DNA of 42,465 nt from Nautiliaceae bacterium (GCA_027011225.1 JALVAK010000007.1:1-42465), one strand, 5' to 3'; counted from the stretch's first letter, positions 1 through 26,630 are shown. Numbers and translations: made by a program. Notes: generated from the letters alone by a model not told the origin.

Positions 1-200
1 ATCCAATTTTGATTTTTTGGCAGTATTTTTAAAATATTTTCTTCATATTTTTTTGAAAAATTATAAGTTTCTTTAACAATTTCTTTTAATATTATATTGT
101 TTATATCTTTAATTGCTTTATTCAAATTAATAAACAAAAAAGCACTCAATAAAAAAATAATTATTGCAAATACTAAAAAAATTATATAAAAACGTTTCAT
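1..200 (-). CDS. Membrane-anchored sensor-like protein, N-terminal fragment (gene runs off the left edge)
   Basis: Manual reverse translation from ATG at 200: MKRFYIIFLVFAIIIFLLSAFLFINLNKAIKDINNIILKEIVKETYNFSKKYEENILKILPKNQNW; one N-terminal TM helix then a likely periplasmic region; start overlaps the upstream gene stop (ATGA). Confidence 0.6.
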   Translation of the reverse strand, partial: MKRFYIIFLVFAIIIFLLSAFLFINLNKAIKDINNIILKEIVKETYNFSKKYEENILKILPKNQNW

Positions 201-583
201 TCAACGTGACCTTTGATTTCATTAGGAATTTTTTTAAAATATTTTTTTAATATTTCTTTTTTTAATTTTAACTGAGGTCTACCTTTTCTATAATAAAAAA
301 CTCCAAAAGCATGATTGTTTTTTTTATAAAACCTATAACTTAGCGCAAAAACCGGTTTATCTAAACAACTAATATTTCCAAATACTATATCAGATTTATT
401 ACAATCAATAACTAGTTTAAATTTAGGATTTTTAAAATAAATATAGTATTTTGGAAGAGTATAAATTTTTATGATTTTTTTATCAGTAATTTTAGGAAAT
501 AAAAATAATAATAACTCGCTTAACCCTTCAATTTTAGCAAAACTAAAATTAATAAAAATAATTAAAAATATAATTTTTTTCAA
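197..583 (-). CDS. Small secreted/periplasmic protein of unknown function
   Basis: ORF with signal peptide (MKKIIFLIIFINFSFA); 4-nt overlaps with both neighbours. Confidence 0.65.
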   Translation of the reverse strand: MKKIIFLIIFINFSFAKIEGLSELLLFLFPKITDKKIIKIYTLPKYYIYFKNPKFKLVIDCNKSDIVFGNISCLDKPVFALSYRFYKKNNHAFGVFYYRKGRPQLKLKKEILKKYFKKIPNEIKGHVE

Positions 584-2409
584 AATGAATACTCCATTCC
601 TAAATCTATTCTTCTCTCAATCAAAGGCACACTTATTGGATTATTAAAACGATTTGTTAAAGGATTAAATGAAAAGAAATTATATTTTTTGGCTTTATTT
701 AAAATATTCTCTCCCTTAATAAAAAAACTCAAATTATCATTTTTTATATATCTTAAACCTAATGATAAATCATAATAAAACTTGCTATTTTCTTCTTTAT
801 CGATTACCAACTCTTCAAAAGCATTAATTTTTTTTATTTGATTATAATTATAAATAACAAAGCTATGAATCCTATAAATATTAACATTTGGTATATCTTT
901 TATATAATGGAAAAAATAGCTAAAATTAAACTTACTAAATGGCTTATATCTATTTTCATATCTAAATGATAAATATTTCTCATTCATATGAGTATCAAGA
1001 TTAACTAAAATTCCTTTGTTGTTTGGAAAAAAATAATGTTTTGAGCGAAAATATCCAAAAGCAAATTCAAACGTATTTTTAAAATTTTCATATTTAATAT
1101 CTTCAAAAATATTATTAATAACAGCTGGCAAAAGATTTAACTTATTTATATAAAACGAATTTATTAAATAAGAATCTAGCGTATATTCTATATGAGAAAA
1201 AGCAGTTTTAAATACAAAATTTTTTTTCAAAAAAGTATGAGATATTCTATATTGTTTAGTTTTTTGGTCCTTTATTTTCCAATCGTTATCGAAATAAGAA
1301 AAAGAGTACCCAAAATTAACTAATGAATTTACACTCAAAAACTTGCTATACTGCATAAAAATTGTATAAACATCTTGTCTATGCCTATAAACAGGCAATT
1401 TAATATCATCAAAATAAATCTTTGACCAATTAAAATTTTTAAATCTATTTTTACTGCCTAATAGTAAAATATTTCCATTAAATTCTTTTTTATACTTTAG
1501 ATTTATATCTACAACCTTATCAAAAGATTTTATATTTACTTTTTTAATAGGTTGATTTTCATAAACAAAAAGTACAGGAGTTTCATAATAATACGTATGA
1601 TTTTTATTAAAATTAGCTCCTAAATAGAAGTTAAAATCCTTAATTTTTCTTTCATATCCAAAATGAAAAACTTTATTTTTTAAAAAGCTATCATCAACTT
1701 TTCCATCTAAACTAAATCCTAAAAACCCATCACTTTTTGATAATAAAATATAAGCTAAAATATTAGAGTGGTTATTATAAATTTTTAACAAAAATTGTTT
1801 TCTATATTGCGAATTGTGATAATCTGATTTTTCATTATCATTTGATAAATACGTATAATAAGAATACTTACCTATTTTTGCTTTTTCAAAAAATAAATAT
1901 GTATCTTTATTACCTTTGCTTAAATATAAGTTATTCCCTTCATCCCTAAATGCATCTTTTGAATATAGTTTAATTACAATTAAACTTGGCTCAGTTGAAA
2001 CTTCTAAAGATGGTGCTTGAGTATAAATTTCTATATGGTCAACCCATTTAATATCAATATCTCCTAAAATTGCAAGCCCACTATTATAAAGAGCACTTAC
2101 CACTTCTTGATTATCTATAAAAATTTTTATAGGAGAGCTTAAAAAAGGAATAGCAGTATTTGGATTAAAAGGGTCAATAACTCCAAATCTATTAAATTTA
2201 TATGTAATAGGCAAAATTTTTAATACATCTCTTAAATGAGTAATTTCTAAAGAGTTTATATCTTCTCTTGTTAGAAGATATAATATACCGCTATTTTCTT
2301 TTTTTGTTTTATTAGACAAATCATTTTTTATAGCAATTTTATATAAAATATTATCAACATTTGCAAACAGATATACAAAAATTAATAACCCTAAAATAAT
2401 TCTTAACAT
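580..2409 (-). CDS. TonB-dependent-receptor-like outer membrane protein (plug + beta-barrel)
   Basis: Signal peptide; plug-like segment (LTREDINSLEITHLRDVLKILP...IFIDNQEVVSALYNSG...VDHIEIYTQ); alternating aromatic strands; C-terminal ...MEYSF. Confidence 0.75.
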   Translation of the reverse strand: MLRIILGLLIFVYLFANVDNILYKIAIKNDLSNKTKKENSGILYLLTREDINSLEITHLRDVLKILPITYKFNRFGVIDPFNPNTAIPFLSSPIKIFIDNQEVVSALYNSGLAILGDIDIKWVDHIEIYTQAPSLEVSTEPSLIVIKLYSKDAFRDEGNNLYLSKGNKDTYLFFEKAKIGKYSYYTYLSNDNEKSDYHNSQYRKQFLLKIYNNHSNILAYILLSKSDGFLGFSLDGKVDDSFLKNKVFHFGYERKIKDFNFYLGANFNKNHTYYYETPVLFVYENQPIKKVNIKSFDKVVDINLKYKKEFNGNILLLGSKNRFKNFNWSKIYFDDIKLPVYRHRQDVYTIFMQYSKFLSVNSLVNFGYSFSYFDNDWKIKDQKTKQYRISHTFLKKNFVFKTAFSHIEYTLDSYLINSFYINKLNLLPAVINNIFEDIKYENFKNTFEFAFGYFRSKHYFFPNNKGILVNLDTHMNEKYLSFRYENRYKPFSKFNFSYFFHYIKDIPNVNIYRIHSFVIYNYNQIKKINAFEELVIDKEENSKFYYDLSLGLRYIKNDNLSFFIKGENILNKAKKYNFFSFNPLTNRFNNPISVPLIERRIDLGMEYSF

Positions 2410-4010
2410 AATCTTTCCTTAGGCTTACTAAATAAGTATCCTTGAGAATAATCAATACCTAAATTCTCTATTATATTTTGAATTTTTTCATTTTCTACAT
2501 ATTCTGCTATTACTTTTGCATTAATACTTTTTGCAAATTCACTTATTGCTTTAGTAATTGCATAAGAATTATTATCATTTGCTATATTTTTAATAAATTT
2601 TCCATCAATTTTTATATAATCCGCCTTAAAAAACATAAAACGCTCAAAATTAGAATGCATTGTTCCAAAATCATCAATTGCTATTTTAAATCCTAATTTT
2701 TCTAAAACTCTTAATTTATCTAAAATTGCACTATTTTCAATCTGACCTATACCTTCTAAAACTTCTAAGATAATTCTATCTTTTTTAATATTATAATACT
2801 TTGTTTTTTCTAATAAATAATCAATAAGCTCATCACTTCTTAAATCCGCATCTGTCAAATTTATAGAAAATTCATAATCATTATTACTAAACACTCTAAA
2901 AGATTTATCAATAATTTGCTTAGTAATATCAGTAATAAAACCACCTTTTTGTGCAATATCTATAAAATTATTAGGAGAGATTATTTCATTATCACTTTTT
3001 ATTCTAGCTAGCACTTCATATTTTGTAATCTTTTTTAATTTATTATCATAAATACCTTGAAAAAAAGGAATGATTTGCTCATTTTTTATAGCTTCTTTTA
3101 AAAGAGGTAAATATTTATTTACTTTTAATTGAAACTTCTCAATATCCAAATCTCTAGAATATATTACACATTTTTTACCTTTTCTTTTAGCTTCTTTTAA
3201 AGCTAAAGAAGCTTTTTTTAATAAATTATCTCCTTTTGCTATTCCTATAGTAAAATCAATTGGCATAAAATGGCTATCATCTATCTTAAAATGAGGTATT
3301 AAAATAGAATTTATATCAATATCTTTTAATATAGCAAACTCATCATTTCCTAAATAGTATACATCTTCAAATTGTTTTAGATAAGAAGCTACATATTTTA
3401 ATAATTCATCTCCCTTTTCATATCCATATACAATATTCACACTATCAAAATTATTAATATTTAAAATTGTAATACTTTTTTTATTTTTTATATCTTTTAA
3501 AAGGGCTGTTCTATTTTTTAATAAAGTCAGCTCATCATAATATGTTTTAAATTCAATTTCTTTAATTTTTTTCTTAAGCTCTTTTTGTAAAACTTCATTA
3601 AAATTTTTTATAAGTTTTTCATTTTGAATAACTGATGCTACTCTTTTTAAAATTAAAATTAACTTTTCTAGTTTTATAGGCTTTACTAAAAAACCATCTG
3701 CCCCATTTTCAATAGCCTCAAATAAATACTTACTATCACTATATGCTGTAACTAAAATTACTTTTTGATTTTTATTTTTATTTTTAATAATCTTTAAAAG
3801 CTCAATGCCATCCATCTCTGGCATCAAAATATCACTAAATATGATATCGTAACTGTTTTGTTTCATTTTCTCTAATGCTTCTTTAGTATTTGTAGCTATA
3901 TCTACTTCTTTAAAAAAAAGCAAAAAAAGCTCTTTCATTTTTTCTATTACTTCATTATCATCATCTACTAATAATACATTAAGAGATTTTGTAAGGTTGT
4001 TTATCTGCAT
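2403..4010 (-). CDS. Response regulator with REC, degenerate GGDEF and EAL domains
   Basis: REC: VLLVDDDNE...DIIFSDILMPEMDG...LVTAYSDS...KPI. GGDEF site reads LGNDEF. EAL motifs: YEVLAR, IDDFGT, DYIKIDGKFIK, VIAEYVE, SQGYLFSKP. Confidence 0.9.
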   Translation of the reverse strand: MQINNLTKSLNVLLVDDDNEVIEKMKELFLLFFKEVDIATNTKEALEKMKQNSYDIIFSDILMPEMDGIELLKIIKNKNKNQKVILVTAYSDSKYLFEAIENGADGFLVKPIKLEKLILILKRVASVIQNEKLIKNFNEVLQKELKKKIKEIEFKTYYDELTLLKNRTALLKDIKNKKSITILNINNFDSVNIVYGYEKGDELLKYVASYLKQFEDVYYLGNDEFAILKDIDINSILIPHFKIDDSHFMPIDFTIGIAKGDNLLKKASLALKEAKRKGKKCVIYSRDLDIEKFQLKVNKYLPLLKEAIKNEQIIPFFQGIYDNKLKKITKYEVLARIKSDNEIISPNNFIDIAQKGGFITDITKQIIDKSFRVFSNNDYEFSINLTDADLRSDELIDYLLEKTKYYNIKKDRIILEVLEGIGQIENSAILDKLRVLEKLGFKIAIDDFGTMHSNFERFMFFKADYIKIDGKFIKNIANDNNSYAITKAISEFAKSINAKVIAEYVENEKIQNIIENLGIDYSQGYLFSKPKERLC

Positions 4011-4022
4011 AAAAATCCTTAT

Positions 4023-5132
4023 TTAACACAAAGTCTTATCGGTTATTCTCCTTAAAAAAAAGTAAGTAGCATCATCATCTTGAGCAATAATTTTTTCTTT
4101 TCTTTTTTTCTCAAATTCATCTAAAGAATCAGACTCTAAAAAATCTTTTTCTATATATGATAAGTATATTTTATTGTCCTTTGTAATGCTCTCTGTAATA
4201 CCATCGGTACAAATTAACATTTTTTTAACATTTTTTAAACAAAACTCTGAAAATTTTATATTTCTTGTAGAAGATGATAAAGGAGGATTGTTAGATTTTA
4301 TCTTCTCTACTTTGTTATCAATTTGGAGAAAAATAGAAGGCATACTAAAAGAAGCAAATCTTAATATTTCATTTTCTATTTTATAAATTCCAAAACACAA
4401 AATTTCATAATCTAAAAGATTGTTTTTCATAAATAAAGAGAATTCTTCTACTATGTTTTCAAAATATTCACCCCTATCTACCAAATAATTAAAAAATGCA
4501 GTTGCCATCATTGCAGTAATAGAAGCAGAAACTCCCTTGCCCATAGCATCTACTAAAAATATACAATTTCTTCTTATAGAAAAGCTATCTCCACTTGTAA
4601 TATCTAAAGGATTATAAAACTCTTCTATAAAAAAAGAATCTATTATATCCTTTTCAATTCTTATAATTTTTTTCTCTTTTTCTAGCGCTAATTTCTCTTG
4701 ATAATTTTTATACTTAATCTTATCTCTTAAAGACTTAAATAAAATTCTGTTAATAAGAGCATACTTAGAAGCTTTCTCAAAAGCATTTAATAATTTATCT
4801 TTTGTTACAGGTTTTTTTACAAATGCAGTTATATTTAAATTAATTGCTTTTGCAAGCATCTCTTTATTATCAAATGCTGAGACTAAAATAATTGGAATAT
4901 CTCTATCAAGCTTTCTAATCTCTTCTACCATCTCAAGACCACTCATATTAGGCATAATCTCATCTGTTAAAATAATATCAGGAGAGTGTTTTTTAAACGC
5001 TTCTAACCCCTCTTTCCCATCAGTAGCGACATAAACTTCTTTAAAAATTAAAGATAACAGCTCTTTATAAACTTCTATTACTTCTTTACTATCTTCTACA
5101 CATAAAATACTAAACCTTTTAAAATCCATCAT
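4023..5132 (-). CDS. REC-PP2C (RsbU/SpoIIE-type) serine phosphatase
   Basis: REC: ILCVEDSKE...DIILTDEIMPNMSG...KKP. PP2C: GDSF...IFLVDAMGKGVSASITAMMATAFF...TDGITE...DDDATYFFL. Confidence 0.9.
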   Translation of the reverse strand: MMDFKRFSILCVEDSKEVIEVYKELLSLIFKEVYVATDGKEGLEAFKKHSPDIILTDEIMPNMSGLEMVEEIRKLDRDIPIILVSAFDNKEMLAKAINLNITAFVKKPVTKDKLLNAFEKASKYALINRILFKSLRDKIKYKNYQEKLALEKEKKIIRIEKDIIDSFFIEEFYNPLDITSGDSFSIRRNCIFLVDAMGKGVSASITAMMATAFFNYLVDRGEYFENIVEEFSLFMKNNLLDYEILCFGIYKIENEILRFASFSMPSIFLQIDNKVEKIKSNNPPLSSSTRNIKFSEFCLKNVKKMLICTDGITESITKDNKIYLSYIEKDFLESDSLDEFEKKRKEKIIAQDDDATYFFLRRITDKTLC

Positions 5133-5820
5133 CTTTTCCTATGAATAAGACACTATTACCTTTTTTATTATAAAAAATATAAGCAAACTTCTCACACATC
5201 TTAATACCCATACCATTAAAAACCCCTCTTTTTTGATTAAGCCTAAATCCCTCTCCCTCATCAGTTATTTTTACAAAAACATACTTATCTTTTTTTTCTA
5301 CACATACTTCAATTTTTTTGTTTACCTCTTTTTTCAAAAAGTCAAAATATTTATCTTTTTTTATAAGCTCTTCTTTTTCTTTAAAACTAAGAGCCAAATT
5401 ACCATGCTCATAAGCATTAAAAAAAAGCTCATTAAACACCAACATTAAATTTGATTTTTTTACGAAATTTGAAAAAAAGTTCTCAGCCTCTTTAAAAGAA
5501 GAATACCTAGTAGGAAATAGCTTACATTCAAAATCAACATCCAAAACCTGCAAAACAATAAATTTATCATCAGAATATAAAATTTCATTTACAAATTTTT
5601 CTATATTTATATTCTCTTCCGTAATAAGAATTTTTTCAAATTCATCTAGACTATATTTTCCGTTTATAACTTTGCTTACTTTTTTATTTTTTAATACATA
5701 TGCACTAACAAATAAATATATGCTGTTATTATCTATTTTAAAATAGCTATTTTCATAAAAGTTATTTATCTCATAACCTTTATTTAAAATAACTACATTA
5801 TCTATAAACCGCCCAATCAA
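5119..5820 (-). CDS. RsbW-like serine kinase/anti-sigma-type HATPase domain protein
   Basis: N box NELFFNAYEHGN, G1 box DEGEGF, G2 box GMGIKMCEK in the C-terminal half. Confidence 0.8.
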   Translation of the reverse strand: MIGRFIDNVVILNKGYEINNFYENSYFKIDNNSIYLFVSAYVLKNKKVSKVINGKYSLDEFEKILITEENINIEKFVNEILYSDDKFIVLQVLDVDFECKLFPTRYSSFKEAENFFSNFVKKSNLMLVFNELFFNAYEHGNLALSFKEKEELIKKDKYFDFLKKEVNKKIEVCVEKKDKYVFVKITDEGEGFRLNQKRGVFNGMGIKMCEKFAYIFYNKKGNSVLFIGKDDGF

Positions 5821-5831
5821 AATTAAAAACC

Positions 5832-7808
5832 TTAAATTTTAAATTTAGATATCTCTCTCTCAAGTGCTTGCGCATCTTTTTCTAAAGTTTTAGCAGAATT
5901 TTCAAGCTTTTTCCTATAAACAAAATTTTCTTTTGTAATATTTACTAAATCTGTCATTTTTTGAATTAACTCTTTAGTCTTAGTTGCTATATAAGTTCCT
6001 TTATGCATAGCATCTTTTGATTTTTCCACTGTACTTAATAAATTCTCTCTTGTGGAATTTGAAGCATTAATTAAATCTTTTGCATAATCAGAAATTTCAT
6101 TCATATCTTTTGTAGTATCATCAACTTTACTTGCTATATCTACAATATTTTGATTAATTAAATTTAAATTTACTTCAATCTCATTTAAACTTTTTTGAGT
6201 CCTTTCAGCCAATTTTCTAACTTCATCTGCTACAACTGCAAACCCTCTTCCATGCTCCCCTGCTCTAGCCGCCTCTATTGCCGCATTAAGTGCAAGCAAG
6301 CTTGTTTGGTCTGCAATTTCTGAAATAATAGATAAAATATCTTTAATATTTTCTGCTTGGTCTTTAAGAGCAGTAACTTTTTCATTAAGCTCATGTTGTT
6401 TTTCATTTCTAAACTCTATTTTTTTAACAACATCTTCTAATTTATCAGCAAATTTTTCTAAAAATTCAAAAGTTTTTTGCAAATCTTCTGTTACAGAAAT
6501 AGATGCTTCTTCTAAATCATCAAGCTTAGTTGCGACTTCATCAACTAATTCTTTCATTTTTTCTGTAGATTCATCAACTTTCTCACCATTTTCTAACAAT
6601 TCTTTTGAAATTTGATTTATTTTTTTACTCTCTTGCAAAGTAGATATGGATACATTTTTTACACTTTCTAAAGAATTTCTAAAATTATCTATCATAATTT
6701 TTAAAGCGCTAAGTATTTCGCCTATTTCATCTTTTGAAGTATTATTAATATCGCAAGTCAAATCCAAATTATCAACTACACATCTTATTTTATCTACTCC
6801 ATAAGAGACTTTTTTACTAATATCTTTAATAATCCAAACTATTACTAAAATTGAAAAAATAGAAAATAATAATACAAATGAAATTAAAGTACCATATTTA
6901 ATATAAAAATCTTTTTTTAATGTCTCAATTGTTTTTATATTCTCTTTTGAGATAAAATCATCAACTTTTTTCAATAAATTAATCTTAGCAGTAATAGTTT
7001 TAAACCAATACTCAGCATCAACTCCAAAATGCCCTACTTTATGTAATTTTCTAGCAATATTCTCCATTCTTGTTACTTCTTTAACTACAGGAGATGACAT
7101 AACTTTTTCATAGTATTTTATATATTTAAATGGAGCTATAGCTTTAAAAGCATCAATATAAGCATTCTGCTCAGCTAATAAGGTTATAAATTTTGTATAC
7201 ATTCCAGGCAAAAATTTATCTGCTCCAAATGTAGCACTAAGCACTGCTCTTTCAATTCCGCTTCTCTCTTTTGCTTTTAAGAAATTTGTATACCCATCAA
7301 GAGATTTAATAAGCTTTGGAGTTTGAGAGTATCTAGCAGTTAAAGCTACAATATCTAAAATTACTTTATTCATAGAAGTATAAAATTTAAGCTCTTCACT
7401 AACTGGAATTTTTAAATTATCTACTTGTTTTCTAATTTCAGGAAGTTTTGCAATATAATTTTGTAAAATATTTAATTTTTCTTTTAAAAGAGGCGGATAT
7501 TCTTTAGCATTAAAATGTTTTAAAAACTCTTGCAATTCTTTTAATCTTTTATCAGTTAAAATCCTTTGTTTTCTTAAAATTTCTCTAAATTTTTTACCTT
7601 TGCTTCCTAAAAATCCAGCACTAGCTCCTCTTTCTTTTTGAGTTTCGTGAATAAACTTACTTAATTTATCTGATAAAAAGACTAAATTTTCTGTTTTATT
7701 TAATGCATTTACATTTTTATACATATCATAAAATAAATAAGACAAAATAATTAAAGATAACGACAAAACAAGTACAATAATAATATTTAATTTACCCTTA
7801 ATAGACAT
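5832..7808 (-). CDS. Methyl-accepting chemotaxis protein with nitrate/nitrite-sensing (NIT)-like periplasmic domain
   Basis: Two TM helices; [23 protein letters not shown]-like signature; MCP core [40 protein letters not shown]. Confidence 0.92.
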
Positions 7809-8089
7809 TATAACTTCCTTATATTAAACAATGAAACTAAGCCAAGCTCATCAAATAAATCGTACAAATCCTCTTTTACTTTAATAGTTATATTAATTCC
7901 TTCATCTACTAATTTATTTAAATACCCAATTACAGAAGAAGTTATAGAAATTGAATCTATAAGATTTATAATGATGTTATCGTACATTTTTTTTATGCTA
8001 TCTAATTCCGCTTTTATAATTTCAAAATCTTCTAATGATTTTATATTCCCATAAACATATAAAATATTTCCCTCTCTTTTAATTTCCAT
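7808..8089 (-). CDS. STAS-domain (anti-sigma-factor antagonist-like) protein
   Basis: 93 aa; [22 protein letters not shown] resembles the STAS phospho-serine loop (compare SpoIIAA DSSGLG). Confidence 0.75.
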
Positions 8090-8098
8090 AACGAACCT

Positions 8099-8491
8099 TT
8101 ATATCGATTTAATAATCTTATTAGCAACTCCTAAATCTATATCTCCTCTTTGTTTAAGTCTTTTCATAATCTCACCAATATTTTTAGAGCCTATTTCATC
8201 AATAATCTCTTCAATTACTTTTTTTGTCTCTTCTTCATTTAGCATTTTTGGCAAAAACTCTTCATAAATTTCAAGCTCTTTTTTAGCTTCCTCAATCCCA
8301 GCATCAATTGATTCTTTTGCCATTTTTGCAAGTTTTTTAGCAGCCTCAGTTATATGTTTTTGACTAACTTCTTCATTTTTTTCTTTTGCAATTTTTTGAG
8401 CGCTATCAACTAGCATCATTAATGCATTTGCCTTTGTTTTATCTTCTCTTTTTGCTTTCATCATCATTTTTTTAAGCTCTATTATTGTCAT
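8099..8491 (-). CDS. yqeY: GatB/YqeY-domain protein
   Basis: MTIIELKKMMMKAKREDKTKANALMML...YEEFLPKMLNEEETKKVIEEII...IGEIMKRLKQRG.DLGVANKIIK; start placed at 8491 after GGAGAGAAAATG (track ORF extends to 8521). Confidence 0.85.
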   Translation of the reverse strand: MTIIELKKMMMKAKREDKTKANALMMLVDSAQKIAKEKNEEVSQKHITEAAKKLAKMAKESIDAGIEEAKKELEIYEEFLPKMLNEEETKKVIEEIIDEIGSKNIGEIMKRLKQRGDIDLGVANKIIKSI

Positions 8492-12712: not shown

Positions 12713-13117
12713 TTATGGATTTTGCAAAGTCATTTTTACTTTTCTTATATTTATATTAGGAAGTCTTGAAGTGACACTCACATAAACCAAAACACTTCCA
12801 TTTGTATCTTTAGTATATATCTTTGTGCAATTATTATCATTGCAATTTGTTAAGAAATAATGAAACTTAATATTGGCATTAAAAAATGGATAAGTAATAT
12901 TTATCTCATTAACTCTTTTAGAGCTAAAATCATGCCCATGCAATGCAAGAATTGCATACTCAGTAGCACTTCTTAGAGCTAAATTTGCTCTTATATCCAT
13001 AATAGAGCTTGATGCATGGTAAGTGCTTGAAGCACTAAATTTCATTATCATTATTCCAATAAACGCCATAATAACCATAAAAATTATACTAAGTAAAAGT
13101 GAAAATCCCTTTTTCAA
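12713..13117 (-). CDS. Minor pseudopilin-like protein (PilX/GspK-like, lacks Glu5)
   Basis: MKKG-FSLLLSIIFMVIMAFIGIMIMKFSASS prepilin-type N-terminus without the +5 Glu; 4-nt overlap with next pilin gene. Confidence 0.65.
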   Translation of the reverse strand: MKKGFSLLLSIIFMVIMAFIGIMIMKFSASSTYHASSSIMDIRANLALRSATEYAILALHGHDFSSKRVNEINITYPFFNANIKFHYFLTNCNDNNCTKIYTKDTNGSVLVYVSVTSRLPNINIRKVKMTLQNP

Positions 13118-14118
13118 AACACTATCCTTTCTTTACATATTGTAAGAGAATTATTTGAATCAACTTTAATTGATGGATTTTGAATACACAAATAAAGTCT
13201 TAACACTCCATTTTGCTCTTTAAATTTAAATTGAACAACATGAGTTGCTATTACAGATTTATTACCATCTGTAAAGTTTTCATCTTTCCATGGGTAATAA
13301 TTCTGAATAAGAGTTAAATTATAATCATTAGTTTTTTGGTTATAAACAGGTACTATTGCCTCTGCTCCGTTACATATATAAAAACCTTCATAAACACTTG
13401 ATTGATTAGACTCATTTATCTCTTTTATTCTAATAGTAGAATTATCAATAATCTGAATTATTTTATAAACATTTTTTGCAGGATTTCCATACCAGCCATA
13501 TGATTGATTTATATCTATAAAATCTCCTCTCCCATCTGGACCACTAAAAATTAACGTAGCATAAGTTTTACTAAATACTTCGTTTGAATTTGTTATATTA
13601 AATCCCCAAGATTTTAAATATTCGCTTATAATATCAGCTGTTATATTCATATCAGAATAAGGAATGCTTATATTATAATCTCCTCCATTTGAGTTATTTT
13701 TTTGAGTTTTTATCAAATCTACAAATTCCGCCCATCCAGGAGTTACTCTTTTTAATGTATTATTCCACTCTCCTCTTTTTGAAGAGTAGTCTTTCCTTAT
13801 CCATTCAATAACAGGATATTTATAAGCGTTATTTTTAGTTAAATTTTTAATAGAAATAAATCCTTTAACATTTCCATTAATACAATCATTGTTTGTAGCA
13901 TTACACTCTGTAGCAATAACACTATTTGCGATTCTATTTTCAAGTTTAGCTGCTAAAGAATTTAAAATCAAATCTGTATCATACACAAGTTTATTTGTAG
14001 CCTTTGTAATGGCATAGTTTTTGTATACTTTCAGCAAAATTTCGGTTGAAATAGTCGCTAAAATTCCTAAGATTATCAAAACTACAATTAATTCTAATAA
14101 AGTAAATGACTTTTTCAT
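13114..14118 (-). CDS. Prepilin N-terminal methylation-motif protein (PilW/GspJ-like)
   Basis: MKKS-FTLLELIVVLIILGILATISTEILLKVYKNY. Confidence 0.8.
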   Translation of the reverse strand: MKKSFTLLELIVVLIILGILATISTEILLKVYKNYAITKATNKLVYDTDLILNSLAAKLENRIANSVIATECNATNNDCINGNVKGFISIKNLTKNNAYKYPVIEWIRKDYSSKRGEWNNTLKRVTPGWAEFVDLIKTQKNNSNGGDYNISIPYSDMNITADIISEYLKSWGFNITNSNEVFSKTYATLIFSGPDGRGDFIDINQSYGWYGNPAKNVYKIIQIIDNSTIRIKEINESNQSSVYEGFYICNGAEAIVPVYNQKTNDYNLTLIQNYYPWKDENFTDGNKSVIATHVVQFKFKEQNGVLRLYLCIQNPSIKVDSNNSLTICKERIVF

Positions 14119-14783
14119 CGTGCAATCTCTTCTAATGATAAATATTTGCTAGCCCCTATATTCATAGCAGGGTATGAGATATTTATATCTGTATTATCTA
14201 CATTAGCATGAATGGTAATTAATTTAATACTAGTATTATTAGCATTTGATGAGGTATCGATGCTAAATTTGATTTTATCTGAAGAATAATTAGCATCATC
14301 TTTAATATACTTAACTTTTACATACAATGTTACATCTCCAAAACTCAAAAGTGTTTCGTTAAAATCGTTATAATCATCAATATCATCATAAGCAGAATCA
14401 TTACTCTCACCACTATCTGCTCCAATATGGCTTGTCGTATCGCTTGTACCACTTCTTAAAATATTATTATTAATTTGATGTTTACCTACTCTGTTTAATT
14501 CGTTTGGATAAACTCTTATAAAAAGCTCGCTATCACCGCCGGTTGCGTTCAATTCTTTATAATAATTTTCTTTAATTGTGTTATTTTCGTCAAAATATAA
14601 AGAATTGATAAGATTAAGCAAAGAAAACTCTTGATAAAAAATCTCTTCTTTCATAGAGGTTTTTAAACTATTAGTTGAGGTTTGAAGCATAATCGGTAAA
14701 GTAACTGCAATAATCCCAATTACAATCAAAGATACTAATATCTCAATTAATGTAAAAGCATTAGATTTTTTTTGATTTTTCAT
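14115..14783 (-). CDS. Prepilin N-terminal methylation-motif protein (PilV/GspI-like)
   Basis: MKNQKKSNA-FTLIEILVSLIVIGIIAVTLPIML. Confidence 0.8.
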   Translation of the reverse strand: MKNQKKSNAFTLIEILVSLIVIGIIAVTLPIMLQTSTNSLKTSMKEEIFYQEFSLLNLINSLYFDENNTIKENYYKELNATGGDSELFIRVYPNELNRVGKHQINNNILRSGTSDTTSHIGADSGESNDSAYDDIDDYNDFNETLLSFGDVTLYVKVKYIKDDANYSSDKIKFSIDTSSNANNTSIKLITIHANVDNTDINISYPAMNIGASKYLSLEEIAR

Positions 14784-15516
14784 AAGTTTTTACTACCCCT
14801 TTTATAATTTTTCCTCTAACACCTTCTTTTTCAAGCTCATAAATCCCCTCAGCCGTAGTGCCTTTTGGAGACATTACTTTATTTTTAATCTCAGGAAATT
14901 CTTCTTTTAAAGCTGCAAAGCTTTTAAAAAGACCCTGAGTTAGTTTATTAGCTACTTCTCTTTTTAAGCCTATATAAACTCCCCCATCACTAATCGCTTC
15001 TGCAATTATAGCCAAAAATGCAGGTCCACTTCCAATAATTGCAGTTGCCATATCAATTTCATCATCACTATTTAACCAAATAACATCTCCAATTTTGCTT
15101 AAAATCTCAAAAGCTATCTCTTTTGCTTCAATATCCCCTGTTATTGCAGTAGTAGAAGCACCATATTTTGCTGCAATATTTGGCATAGCTCTTATATAGC
15201 TTTTTGCTTTGATATATTTTTGAAGCTCTATTAGAGGTTTACCTGCTAAAATAGAAATTAAAACCTCAGCCTCTCCTTTTATTCTCATAGAAACTTCTTG
15301 AAGCGCATATGGTTTTATAGCTAAAATCACTACTTTTTTACTTATATCATACCCATCTATAAGATTATATTTACACCCAATTTCATTAGCTAACTTTTTA
15401 AGTTTATTTTCATCTCTTCCTACTACTTCTACTTCTTGCATATTCCATCCACTATTTTTCATACCAAGAAGTATAGCTTTTGCCATTTCACCATATCCAA
15501 TAATACTAACTTTCAT
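14761..15516 (-). CDS. proC: Pyrroline-5-carboxylate reductase
   Basis: MKVSIIGYGEMAKAILLGM...SYIRAMPNIAAKYGASTTAI...ATAIIGSGPAFLAIIAEAISDGGVYIGL...SPKGTTAEGIYELE. Confidence 0.95.
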   Translation of the reverse strand: MKVSIIGYGEMAKAILLGMKNSGWNMQEVEVVGRDENKLKKLANEIGCKYNLIDGYDISKKVVILAIKPYALQEVSMRIKGEAEVLISILAGKPLIELQKYIKAKSYIRAMPNIAAKYGASTTAITGDIEAKEIAFEILSKIGDVIWLNSDDEIDMATAIIGSGPAFLAIIAEAISDGGVYIGLKREVANKLTQGLFKSFAALKEEFPEIKNKVMSPKGTTAEGIYELEKEGVRGKIIKGVVKTYEKSKKI

Positions 15517-15889
15517 CTCTCTCTCCTAAAAAGTCTCCTATTTCTTGTGCTAGCGAATAATTATACTTATCAAGCACAACTTGCCCAAATACTTTATCTT
15601 GAGTATTAAAAACCAAAGGAGCTGCAAAATTTATAGTAGATTTATCAAATGGCGTATTTGGAGTTAAAATATTTAAAACTATTACATTATCTTCTTTTAA
15701 ATTAAGCTTTTTAGCAATCTCATCATCAATTTCAAATTCATAATCATCTCTTAAAAAAAATGGATTTATAAGAGTAAAAGAAGCATTTTTACCCTCTAAC
15801 TTATAAAAAGGACCTTCTATATGAGAGAGCTCATACTCTTTTTCATCTTCAAACCCAAGTATTGGCAATATTGCTTTATATTTCATCAA
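15506..15889 (-). CDS. fliW: Flagellar assembly factor FliW
   Basis: YKAILPILGFEDEKEYELSHIEGPFYKLEG...FTLINPFFLRDDYEFEI...TPNTPFDKSTINFAAPLVFNTQDKVFGQVVL; next to proC. Confidence 0.92.
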   Translation of the reverse strand: MMKYKAILPILGFEDEKEYELSHIEGPFYKLEGKNASFTLINPFFLRDDYEFEIDDEIAKKLNLKEDNVIVLNILTPNTPFDKSTINFAAPLVFNTQDKVFGQVVLDKYNYSLAQEIGDFLGERDES

Positions 15890-23585: not shown

Positions 23586-24270
23586 AATCAAAAAAGATTT
23601 TTTAGCGGTAAAAAATAGAGACCCCGCTTTTAAAAATAATATTGAAATTTTTTACGCATATCCTGGAGTATGGGCATTAGTACATTATAGAATTGCAAAT
23701 GCAATCTATAAAAAAGGATTTAAAAGATTTGCAAGATTTATTATGGCTATAAATCAATTTCTTACAAACATCGATATTCATCCAGGTGCAACTATTGGTG
23801 AGAATGTATTTATTGACCACGGAATTGGAGTAGTAATTGGAGAGACTGCAATTGTTGGAGATAATGTAACAATCTATCAAGGTGTCACTCTTGGTGGAGT
23901 TAGCCTAAATCCGGGTAAACGTCATCCTACAATTGAAAATGATGTAACAATTGGAGCTGGTGCAAAAATATTAGGGAATATCACTATTGGAAAAGGAAGT
24001 AAAATTGGAGCAAATTCGGTTGTGGTAAAAGATGTTCCACCTTTTTCTACGGTAGTTGGAATCCCAGGAAAAGTTATAAAAAGAAAAGATTTTTCACCTT
24101 TATCTCATAATAAACTTCCTGATATTGAAAAAGAGTTATTTGAATATTTAATGGATAGAATAAAAGTTCTTGAAGAAGCAATTATAAACCAAGATAAAAA
24201 TATAATAGAAAAAGATGAAGAGATAGAAAAAAAATATAGAGAATACCTTGAAGCTTTAAAAAGAGATTAA
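23569..24270 (+). CDS. cysE: Serine O-acetyltransferase
   Basis: [37 protein letters not shown]...[46 protein letters not shown] start. Confidence 0.95.
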
Positions 24271-26630
24271 AATTTATTCTCTTCTACATTTTTTAACATT
24301 TTATTTGCCATATCTTTTACTTCATCTGCAACTTTATCCACTTCTTCTACTGCTTTTTCCATATTTTGAGTTTTTAAATTAACTTCTTGTATTTTTTGCG
24401 TTGCAGTAGAAATATCTTCTGTTTGTTTAATAATTGCTTCACCTATTGTGGAGATAGATTGAGTTAAAATATTTATATTCGCATCAATTTCGCTTAAACT
24501 TTTTTGAGTTTTTTCAGCTAATTTTCTAACCTCATCGGCAACAACCGCAAAACCTCTTCCATGCTCGCCTGCTCTTGCCGCTTCAATTGCTGCATTGAGT
24601 GCAAGTAAATTGGTTTGGTCTGCAATTTCTTGAATAACGCTTACTACATTTTTAATATCTTCTGATTGCTGCATAACATTTGAAGTATGGGTTGAGACTT
24701 CAAATATTTTTTCATTAATCTTTTGCATCATATCTGCAACTTCTGCAAGCTCTTTTGATGCTTCAAGTGAAGCTTTTTGAAGCTCATCCATTTTTTCTTT
24801 TAATATATTTGCACTCTCTGTTAGTTTCTCTCCATTATCTTTATTTGTTTTCAAAATATTTGAAATAGTATCAAGCACTGAATTTACTGCTTTTTCAATT
24901 TTTCCTATTGCATTTTCAACTCTTTTGCTAAAATCTTTTTTCATTGCATAATCAAGCACTAAAGCAGTTTTATTTATATCCTCACCTATAATTTTTTCTA
25001 ACGCATCTTGCATTTCATTAAATACAACTCTTACTTTTTCCAAATCAGGATTTGCGGCATGCTCAGTAACTCTTCCTTTTAAAATACCTTTTTTCATTTT
25101 TTCTACTTCTCTAAAAAGACCTTGAATCATCATTGCATCTTTAGAGAGATTCTCTTCTATTTTTTTAATATTTTGATTAATAGCATCTGCCATAAGACCT
25201 ATTTCATCTTTTGACTCAATTTCAATAAGCTTAGCTGATGATATTTCTCTATTTAAAAATTTAAAAAATTCTAACAATCCATTTTTTAATTTTTCAATAG
25301 AAGAGACTAAATCTTTAATAAGCACGAATGCTAAAATTAAAATAATACTAATTACCAAAATCACAATTACACTAATTACAATTAACTCAATTTTTTGCTC
25401 ATGTAAAATAGCTTCAATATCTTTTAATATTTCTTCTCCTAATTTATCAAGATATTTTTTCATTTCATTTATTCTTTTAGTAGATAATCTAACCCACTCA
25501 TATACAGAAATATTATTGAGTTTAACTAAATTAGAAGTAAGCTCATCAAATGCTTTAATTGCAAAAGCATCATTAACTTTAATTATTTTATCAAGCTCTT
25601 TTATAGAGATATTGTTATTTACTCCTTTTTCAACTTTTTTCAATCCCTCATAATATTTCTCAAAAGTTTTTTGTATAGTATTTAAATACTTTATCTCTTG
25701 TGGTGTAGCACCTAATTTTTTATATTCATCTATTAGCGCAAGAAGTTTTTCATAATCTTCTTTAGCTTTTATTTTATATTTTTCATCTCCTCTTAAGATA
25801 TAATTTTTAAAATGATGGATAAATCCACCATAGCCTATAATGCTTTTAATATTAGATAATATCTTTTGCTTTTGAGGAATTATTTGAAGTTTATGTCTTA
25901 TATTCTCAATTTTACTATCAATTTCACCTAAATAGTTTTTTAATTCTTTAAAATCGTTTAATTTTCTATTTTGAATAAGGATAGCACCATTCCATGCAGT
26001 AAGTATTTTATCCCATAATTTATTTTTTGAGAGTATATATGCTACATATGCTCTCTCTTTCCCCGCTTCTTCAATAGCTTCCATCAAATCATAATATTTA
26101 ACTATTTTCTCCATTATATCTTCATTAGGAGAGTACTGAAGCACATGATATTTAGTATTAATAAATTCTGAATCAATGCTTGAATAGTATTTAATAACAG
26201 ATAAAACATCTATTTTTAAACTATCAACTTTTTGCCTTATTTCATTAATATGTGAATAAAGCTTAAATGCATTTTCATACCTTTCATATACTCCTTTTTC
26301 TACATTTTTTAGATGAATTTTCCTAATATACTCTTTTAATTTGCTCATCTCTTTATCTACTTTTTGTCTTTGAATATTGAGCTCTTTTTTAAATTTTTTA
26401 CCATTATTTGCTAAATACACTACACTATAGCCTCTCTCTTTTTGAATCTCTACCATAGCTTTTGCAGTATTTTTTACATTCAATGTCATCAAAATATCAA
26501 GTTTTTGTGTAGATTTATAGTTTTTATATAAATCTTCTAAAAGATAACCGCTAAAAATTAAAATCAAAATTACTGGTAAAAAAACCAAAAATAACAGCTT
26601 TTGCTTAATCGTCATTTTCTTAAACATCAA
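24267..26630 (-). CDS. Methyl-accepting chemotaxis protein with NIT-like periplasmic domain (second copy)
   Basis: [33 protein letters not shown] helices; core [40 protein letters not shown]. Confidence 0.92.

Follow-up and report, generated by a model that had tools for sequence, protein, structure and literature searches.

A chemoreceptor-linked partner switch of apparently mixed ancestry in a Nautiliaceae genome and its conserved core in the Campylobacterota

What does a partner switch act on when no sigma factor is encoded beside it? The question is raised by a cluster of genes from a Nautiliaceae bacterium (GCA_027011225.1) in which a STAS protein, a predicted serine kinase and a predicted PP2C phosphatase are encoded together with a chemoreceptor (MCP), a c-di-GMP enzyme and a putative outer-membrane barrel. 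The window analysed here is the whole stretch of 42,465 nt, whose first letter is base 1 of contig C7; the genome is in 192 contigs and is estimated to be 91% complete. An ORF check of the window found eight minus-strand ORFs, which lie directly downstream of a yqeY-like gene:

8099..8491, minus strand: yqeY-like gene, lying upstream of the cluster; a conserved mnmE neighbour, taken as the site of insertion
7808..8089, minus strand: STAS protein, 93 aa, predicted phospho-acceptor Ser51 (AlphaFold2, Foldseek, profile, alignments)
5832..7808, minus strand: NIT-domain chemoreceptor (MCP), 658 aa (PF08376, 1e-61; PF00015, 3e-33; trees)
6348..6551, minus strand: MCP residues 420-487, signalling-helix segment with LDDLEE, of the LDxxE[EA] class
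5119..5820, minus strand: predicted serine kinase of the RsbW/SpoIIAB-like HATPase type, 233 aa from a TTG start; core at residues 91-233, with N-box ELFFNAYEHGN
5530..5760, minus strand: PP2C remnant in the HATPase N-terminus, about residues 21-97 (alignment with 21 fused PP2C-HATPase proteins)
4023..5132, minus strand: predicted REC-PP2C phosphatase, 369 aa (PF00072; PF07228, 1e-16; tree)
2403..4010, minus strand: REC-GGDEF-EAL protein, 535 aa (Pfam REC, GGDEF and EAL; alignments)
580..2409, minus strand: putative outer-membrane TonB-receptor-like barrel, 609 aa (assigned through a relative in L225)
197..583, minus strand: small protein of 128 aa, predicted to be exported, with a TTG start (its relative adjoins the barrel gene in L225)
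3..200, minus strand: N-terminal part of a membrane protein whose gene runs off the contig (no family match)

The tight packing described in the initial annotation is evident from the junctions which, in transcription order (STAS, MCP, HATPase, REC-PP2C, REC-GGDEF-EAL, barrel, small protein, membrane protein), are a 1 nt overlap (TAATG), an 11 nt gap, a 14 nt overlap, a 12 nt gap, a 7 nt overlap and two overlaps of 4 nt each. The terminal membrane-protein gene is truncated to its N-terminus because the contig begins at window base 1. There is a gap of 9 nt between yqeY and the cluster and the genes further upstream read as rnpA-yidD-yidC-jag-mnmE, so the cluster may be transcribed from this housekeeping operon (rnpA-yidD-yidC-jag-mnmE-yqeY) rather than on its own. 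Promoter-like matches were no more frequent than in shuffled sequences. Elsewhere in the window there is a second chemoreceptor gene (24267-26630, a 787 aa ORF with an MCP signalling domain at 24303-24755) and a group of genes with prepilin-like N-termini (12713-15889; for example 13114-14118, MKKSFTLLELIVVLIILGILAT).

The 93 aa protein has no meaningful match in Pfam, but its identification as a STAS protein held. Its AlphaFold2 model (pLDDT 94.9) has RsbV (6m36) and SpoIIAA (1th8) as top Foldseek matches. Ser51 opens a helix (51-62) in the motif ITSSVIGYL and is invariant in two alignments, and the family profile aligns this motif with MDSTGLG of RsbV, the region of the RsbV phospho-serine. 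The model and the alignments point to a STAS fold with a conserved phospho-serine. The HATPase matches LvrC, SpoIIAB and RsbW in Foldseek, its HATPase_c_2 match falls below the Pfam cut-off, and with intact ATP-binding motifs it is predicted to be an RsbW/SpoIIAB-type kinase. The label 'SenB' of structure 9qih was set aside; the Foldseek description is Leptospira LvrC, and the papers under SenB concern unrelated proteins. The RsbW-like reading of the HATPase was sound as far as its fold goes, but a PP2C remnant had been overlooked. The N-terminus aligns with the C-terminal third of the PP2C domain of 21 fused PP2C-HATPase proteins, with the metal motif SDG changed to SAY, and we read the remnant as dead from these residues. 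The kinase would therefore need a separate PP2C, having no working phosphatase domain of its own. Pfam confirmed REC and SpoIIE (PP2C) domains in the REC-PP2C protein, and the receiver Asp and the PP2C acidic residues are present in the alignment, suggesting a phosphatase with its catalytic residues in place. There is no bifunctional PP2C-kinase fusion in the window; the activities are split over two proteins. As judged by fold and motif, kinase, phosphatase and STAS make up a complete partner switch.

The co-occurrence search across related genomes that had been proposed showed that the linkage of STAS and MCP, with or without the switch enzyme, recurs. In the related genomes sampled, an MCP gene lies within two genes of STAS on the same strand at 17 of 28 STAS loci against 0.6 expected, and in 8 of 10 families; since the expectation treats loci as independent, the families are the more reliable count. 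STAS and MCP, usually with a PP2C-HATPase enzyme, are a conserved module of the Campylobacterota, and in the window, too, STAS adjoins MCP and PP2C/HATPase genes. The STAS family carries the motif [PT]S[SAT][IVL]IG. Three gene orders were found (STAS-MCP-switch, switch-STAS-MCP and MCP-switch-STAS) and the sensor domains of the linked MCPs vary (NIT, dCache, other or none). A scan of named genomes showed that STAS - NIT-MCP - (REC-)PP2C-HATPase is a near-standard arrangement in Sulfurimonas; the set was retrieved via the NIT domain, which favours MCPs. In one family (f20; L103, L125 and others) the STAS-MCP pair is retained and the PP2C-HATPase is encoded elsewhere in the genome, as in G039. 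The STAS-linked MCP of the window's own family is 390 aa long, has two membrane helices and hardly any periplasmic portion; lacking a sensor domain, these receptors probably take their input from elsewhere. There are also STAS-switch loci without an MCP (L053-L056, L061 and L063). In f13 genomes a penicillin-binding protein gene, not an MCP gene, follows the switch-STAS pair (L055:5356-7568 and L061:5772-8050), and in f14 genomes (L156-L174) weaker STAS-like genes are found in varied operons, most of which lack MCPs and switch enzymes.

The core is not unusual: it is near-standard in Sulfurimonas, and the chemoreceptor and c-di-GMP outputs have both been proposed before. Working from gene neighbourhoods, a study of signalling in the Campylobacterota put forward two pathways, neither of them verified experimentally: in one, STAS passes the effect of a REC-PP2C-kinase to a chemoreceptor, and in the other a PP2C/kinase pair uses STAS to regulate a c-di-GMP enzyme (mBio 2022, PMC9239204).

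We give roughly even chances to the following reading, in which the cluster is an acquired, rearranged chemoreceptor-linked switch. The HATPase would phosphorylate STAS on Ser51, and REC-PP2C would remove the phosphate once its receiver is switched on, as expected from family knowledge. STAS, free or phosphorylated, would then bind a target, most likely the adjoining NIT chemoreceptor, and so tune signalling to the chemotaxis array. The MCP is favoured as the target because its linkage to STAS persists where the receiver domain is missing (26 non-edge loci have an MCP-linked switch without REC) and where the switch enzyme is (23 STAS loci have an MCP and no switch nearby). The initial annotation had suggested that the switch output, with no sigma gene present, may be the chemoreceptor or the EAL protein. 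There is indeed no sigma-factor gene in the cluster by ORFs and Pfam, so an Rsb-type linked sigma output is absent, and the chemoreceptor stands as the likely output from its linkage in 8 of 10 families; an EAL gene occurs close to STAS only in scattered cases.

The same loci bear on the converse reading, that the chemoreceptor is the input. NIT ligand would then signal through CheA to the receivers of REC-PP2C and REC-GGDEF-EAL, and STAS would act on another target. The cluster encodes two receiver proteins and lacks a complete gene for a histidine kinase, and in Shewanella the genes for CheA1, MCPs, CrsR and CrsA are all in the che1 locus (PMC9855816). However, the 26 loci without a receiver domain and the 23 STAS-MCP pairs without any switch nearby argue against this, and Shewanella McpA signals to CheA3 of the chemotaxis array, not to Che1 (PMC9855816). 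In addition, the missing kinase may be encoded by the truncated gene at the contig end; this is possibly a sensor kinase for the receivers, although a kinase identity has no family support. We consider it unlikely that the chemoreceptor is the input.

Pfam confirmed NIT and MCPsignal domains in the window MCP. Its signalling-helix segment belongs to a class, LDxxE[EA], that is present in 86 of 108 STAS-linked MCPs and in none of 35 unlinked ones in the local set. Phylum-wide, 57 of 102 carriers of the wider class are near STAS and 45 have no STAS within 4 kb, so a STAS-specific docking motif was downgraded to an enrichment: the class is enriched among STAS-linked MCPs and not exclusive to them. 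Seven MCP matches and flagellar FlhA were found in the window genome, and yet no match to a CheW-domain protein. This is likely to be an assembly gap, because the CheW-domain genes of relatives are mostly in one short locus, because the CheW-less relatives examined all lack MCPs, except one 70%-complete congener, and because FlhA is present; a genuinely CheA/CheW-less genome with orphan MCPs was rejected in its favour. Since no CheW-domain gene was found, the chemotaxis array itself is only presumed in this genome.

The remaining genes are less firmly tied to the switch. In the REC-GGDEF-EAL protein the GGDEF motif is degenerate (GNDEF) and the EAL catalytic residues are intact in alignments, so it is a predicted c-di-GMP phosphodiesterase. 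In parallel with the switch this probably co-transcribed enzyme might lower c-di-GMP, either as a second target of STAS or through its own receiver domain; the EAL link is put more weakly than the MCP link. A c-di-GMP gene is near STAS at six loci, and the link to EAL comes from a few (L049, L065, L068 and C173 of the same genome). A second STAS gene of this genome is in a kinase - STAS - FIST - GGDEF cluster at the end of that contig (L095:6720-9851, G000:C173). The barrel has no meaningful family match of its own in Pfam and family searches, and the sole relative found, in L225, matches PF00593 weakly (E 6e-4). A YfiR-like identity of the small protein had no family support. The trio of barrel, small protein and membrane protein recurs once, in L225, and this block is separate from the conserved core; no plasmid copies of the barrel or the HATPase were found. 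In L225 (7300-9919, a Sulfurimonas MAG) a STAS-MCP-PP2C/HATPase operon is followed by the barrel (two overlapping ORFs), the small protein and a truncated gene for a membrane protein. The eight genes were therefore not borne out as a single integrated conserved unit, with EAL only sporadically near STAS and the barrel block recurring once.

These observations also fit independent modules on one transcript (a mobile switch, a c-di-GMP enzyme and an outer-membrane/periplasmic/membrane-sensor block) with no common circuit. Neither EAL nor barrel is a conserved neighbour, the block with the barrel is found separately in L225, and the trees indicate mixed ancestry. On the other hand, REC-PP2C and REC-GGDEF-EAL also occur with STAS in L049 (a STAS - FIST-kinase - REC-PP2C - REC-GGDEF-EAL cluster), GGDEF-EAL is found together with switch, STAS and MCP in L065, and the window kinase would depend on the separate PP2C. 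Full independence seems somewhat less probable to us than the chemoreceptor as input. Less probable again is one STAS common to chemoreceptor and c-di-GMP phosphodiesterase, in a serine-phosphorylation switch that would reset chemotaxis and lower c-di-GMP, bypassing CheA, with the outer-membrane block supplying the receiver kinase. Least probable is that STAS targets an anti-sigma factor such as FlgM, with the MCP a merely co-regulated motility gene: HsbA of Pseudomonas does alternate between HsbR and FlgM (PMC5085249) and FlhA is present in the genome, but the cluster encodes neither a sigma nor an anti-sigma factor, and across families STAS adjoins MCPs, not flagellar regulators.

The arrangement of the genes had been described correctly; what had been missed is the hybrid nature of the cluster and its absence from close relatives. 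In trees built by quick methods, with several long branches that include the window PP2C and MCP, the window HATPase is inside the NIT-operon clade (support 95), REC-PP2C is outside the NIT-operon PP2C clade (support 99) with L049 as the nearest row by path, and the MCP is apart from Nautiliaceae NIT-MCPs (support 100), its closest relatives being STAS-linked receptors, mostly of Sulfurimonadaceae. A single clade of all STAS-linked NIT-MCPs was rejected (AU test, p 0.001). The cluster is absent from the close relatives examined: congeners and family members have unrelated genes after yqeY. A single-sequence search found no HATPase relatives in 20 members of the genus and family; the family's fused enzymes were later seen by profile. 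The GC content is 23.3% in the cluster and 28.8% in the rest of the window. Taken together, the tree placements, the PP2C remnant, the unrelated genes at the site and the GC difference indicate a hybrid, mixed-lineage copy of a chemoreceptor-linked partner switch. Its position directly after yqeY, where close relatives carry unrelated genes, suggests that it was probably acquired horizontally, with donor and order of events inferred.

The cluster resembles several known systems in part. Like the stas_STYK-PP2C-STAS clusters of Campylobacterota, it has REC-PP2C and kinase, STAS and chemoreceptor, and those clusters have a sporadic distribution driven by horizontal transfer; in contrast with them, kinase and phosphatase are separate, the kinase retains the dead piece of a PP2C domain, and one gene run joins the two proposed outputs with an outer-membrane block (PMC9239204). 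Shewanella che1 (McpA-CrsA-CrsR) and F7 stage 1 clusters also bring together a chemoreceptor, a STAS antagonist and an anti-sigma/serine-phosphatase regulator, but these loci carry cheA/cheW and CrsA/CrsR act on RpoS, and the window has none of these (PMC9855816, PMC7184735). In Pseudomonas SiaABC-SiaD and HsbR-HsbA-HsbD a partner switch controls a c-di-GMP enzyme, as may be the case in the window; there the outputs are diguanylate cyclases in contrast with the predicted EAL phosphodiesterase of the window, and no chemoreceptor gene is described as part of the switch (PMC7647112, PMC5085249). CheS of Sinorhizobium and Agrobacterium is, similarly, a single STAS protein inside a chemotaxis system, but it binds CheA and no PP2C or RsbW-like kinase is described with it (PMC12654446). 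The kinase, phosphatase and STAS folds and the conserved serine are those of Bacillus RsbU/RsbW/RsbV, and the window cluster differs in having no sigma factor. In summary, the core arrangement occurs widely across the phylum and has been put forward in the literature before; the window copy is an unusual hybrid to which a c-di-GMP enzyme and a putative outer-membrane receptor are added.

Chemoreceptor tuning is normally ascribed to methylation. The recurring, rearranged pairing of STAS with chemoreceptors, including receptors without a sensor, suggests serine phosphorylation by such a switch as a possible second input to the array. Sulfurimonas provides cultivable hosts in which this pairing could be tested, and the hybrid copy in the window illustrates the merging of such modules.
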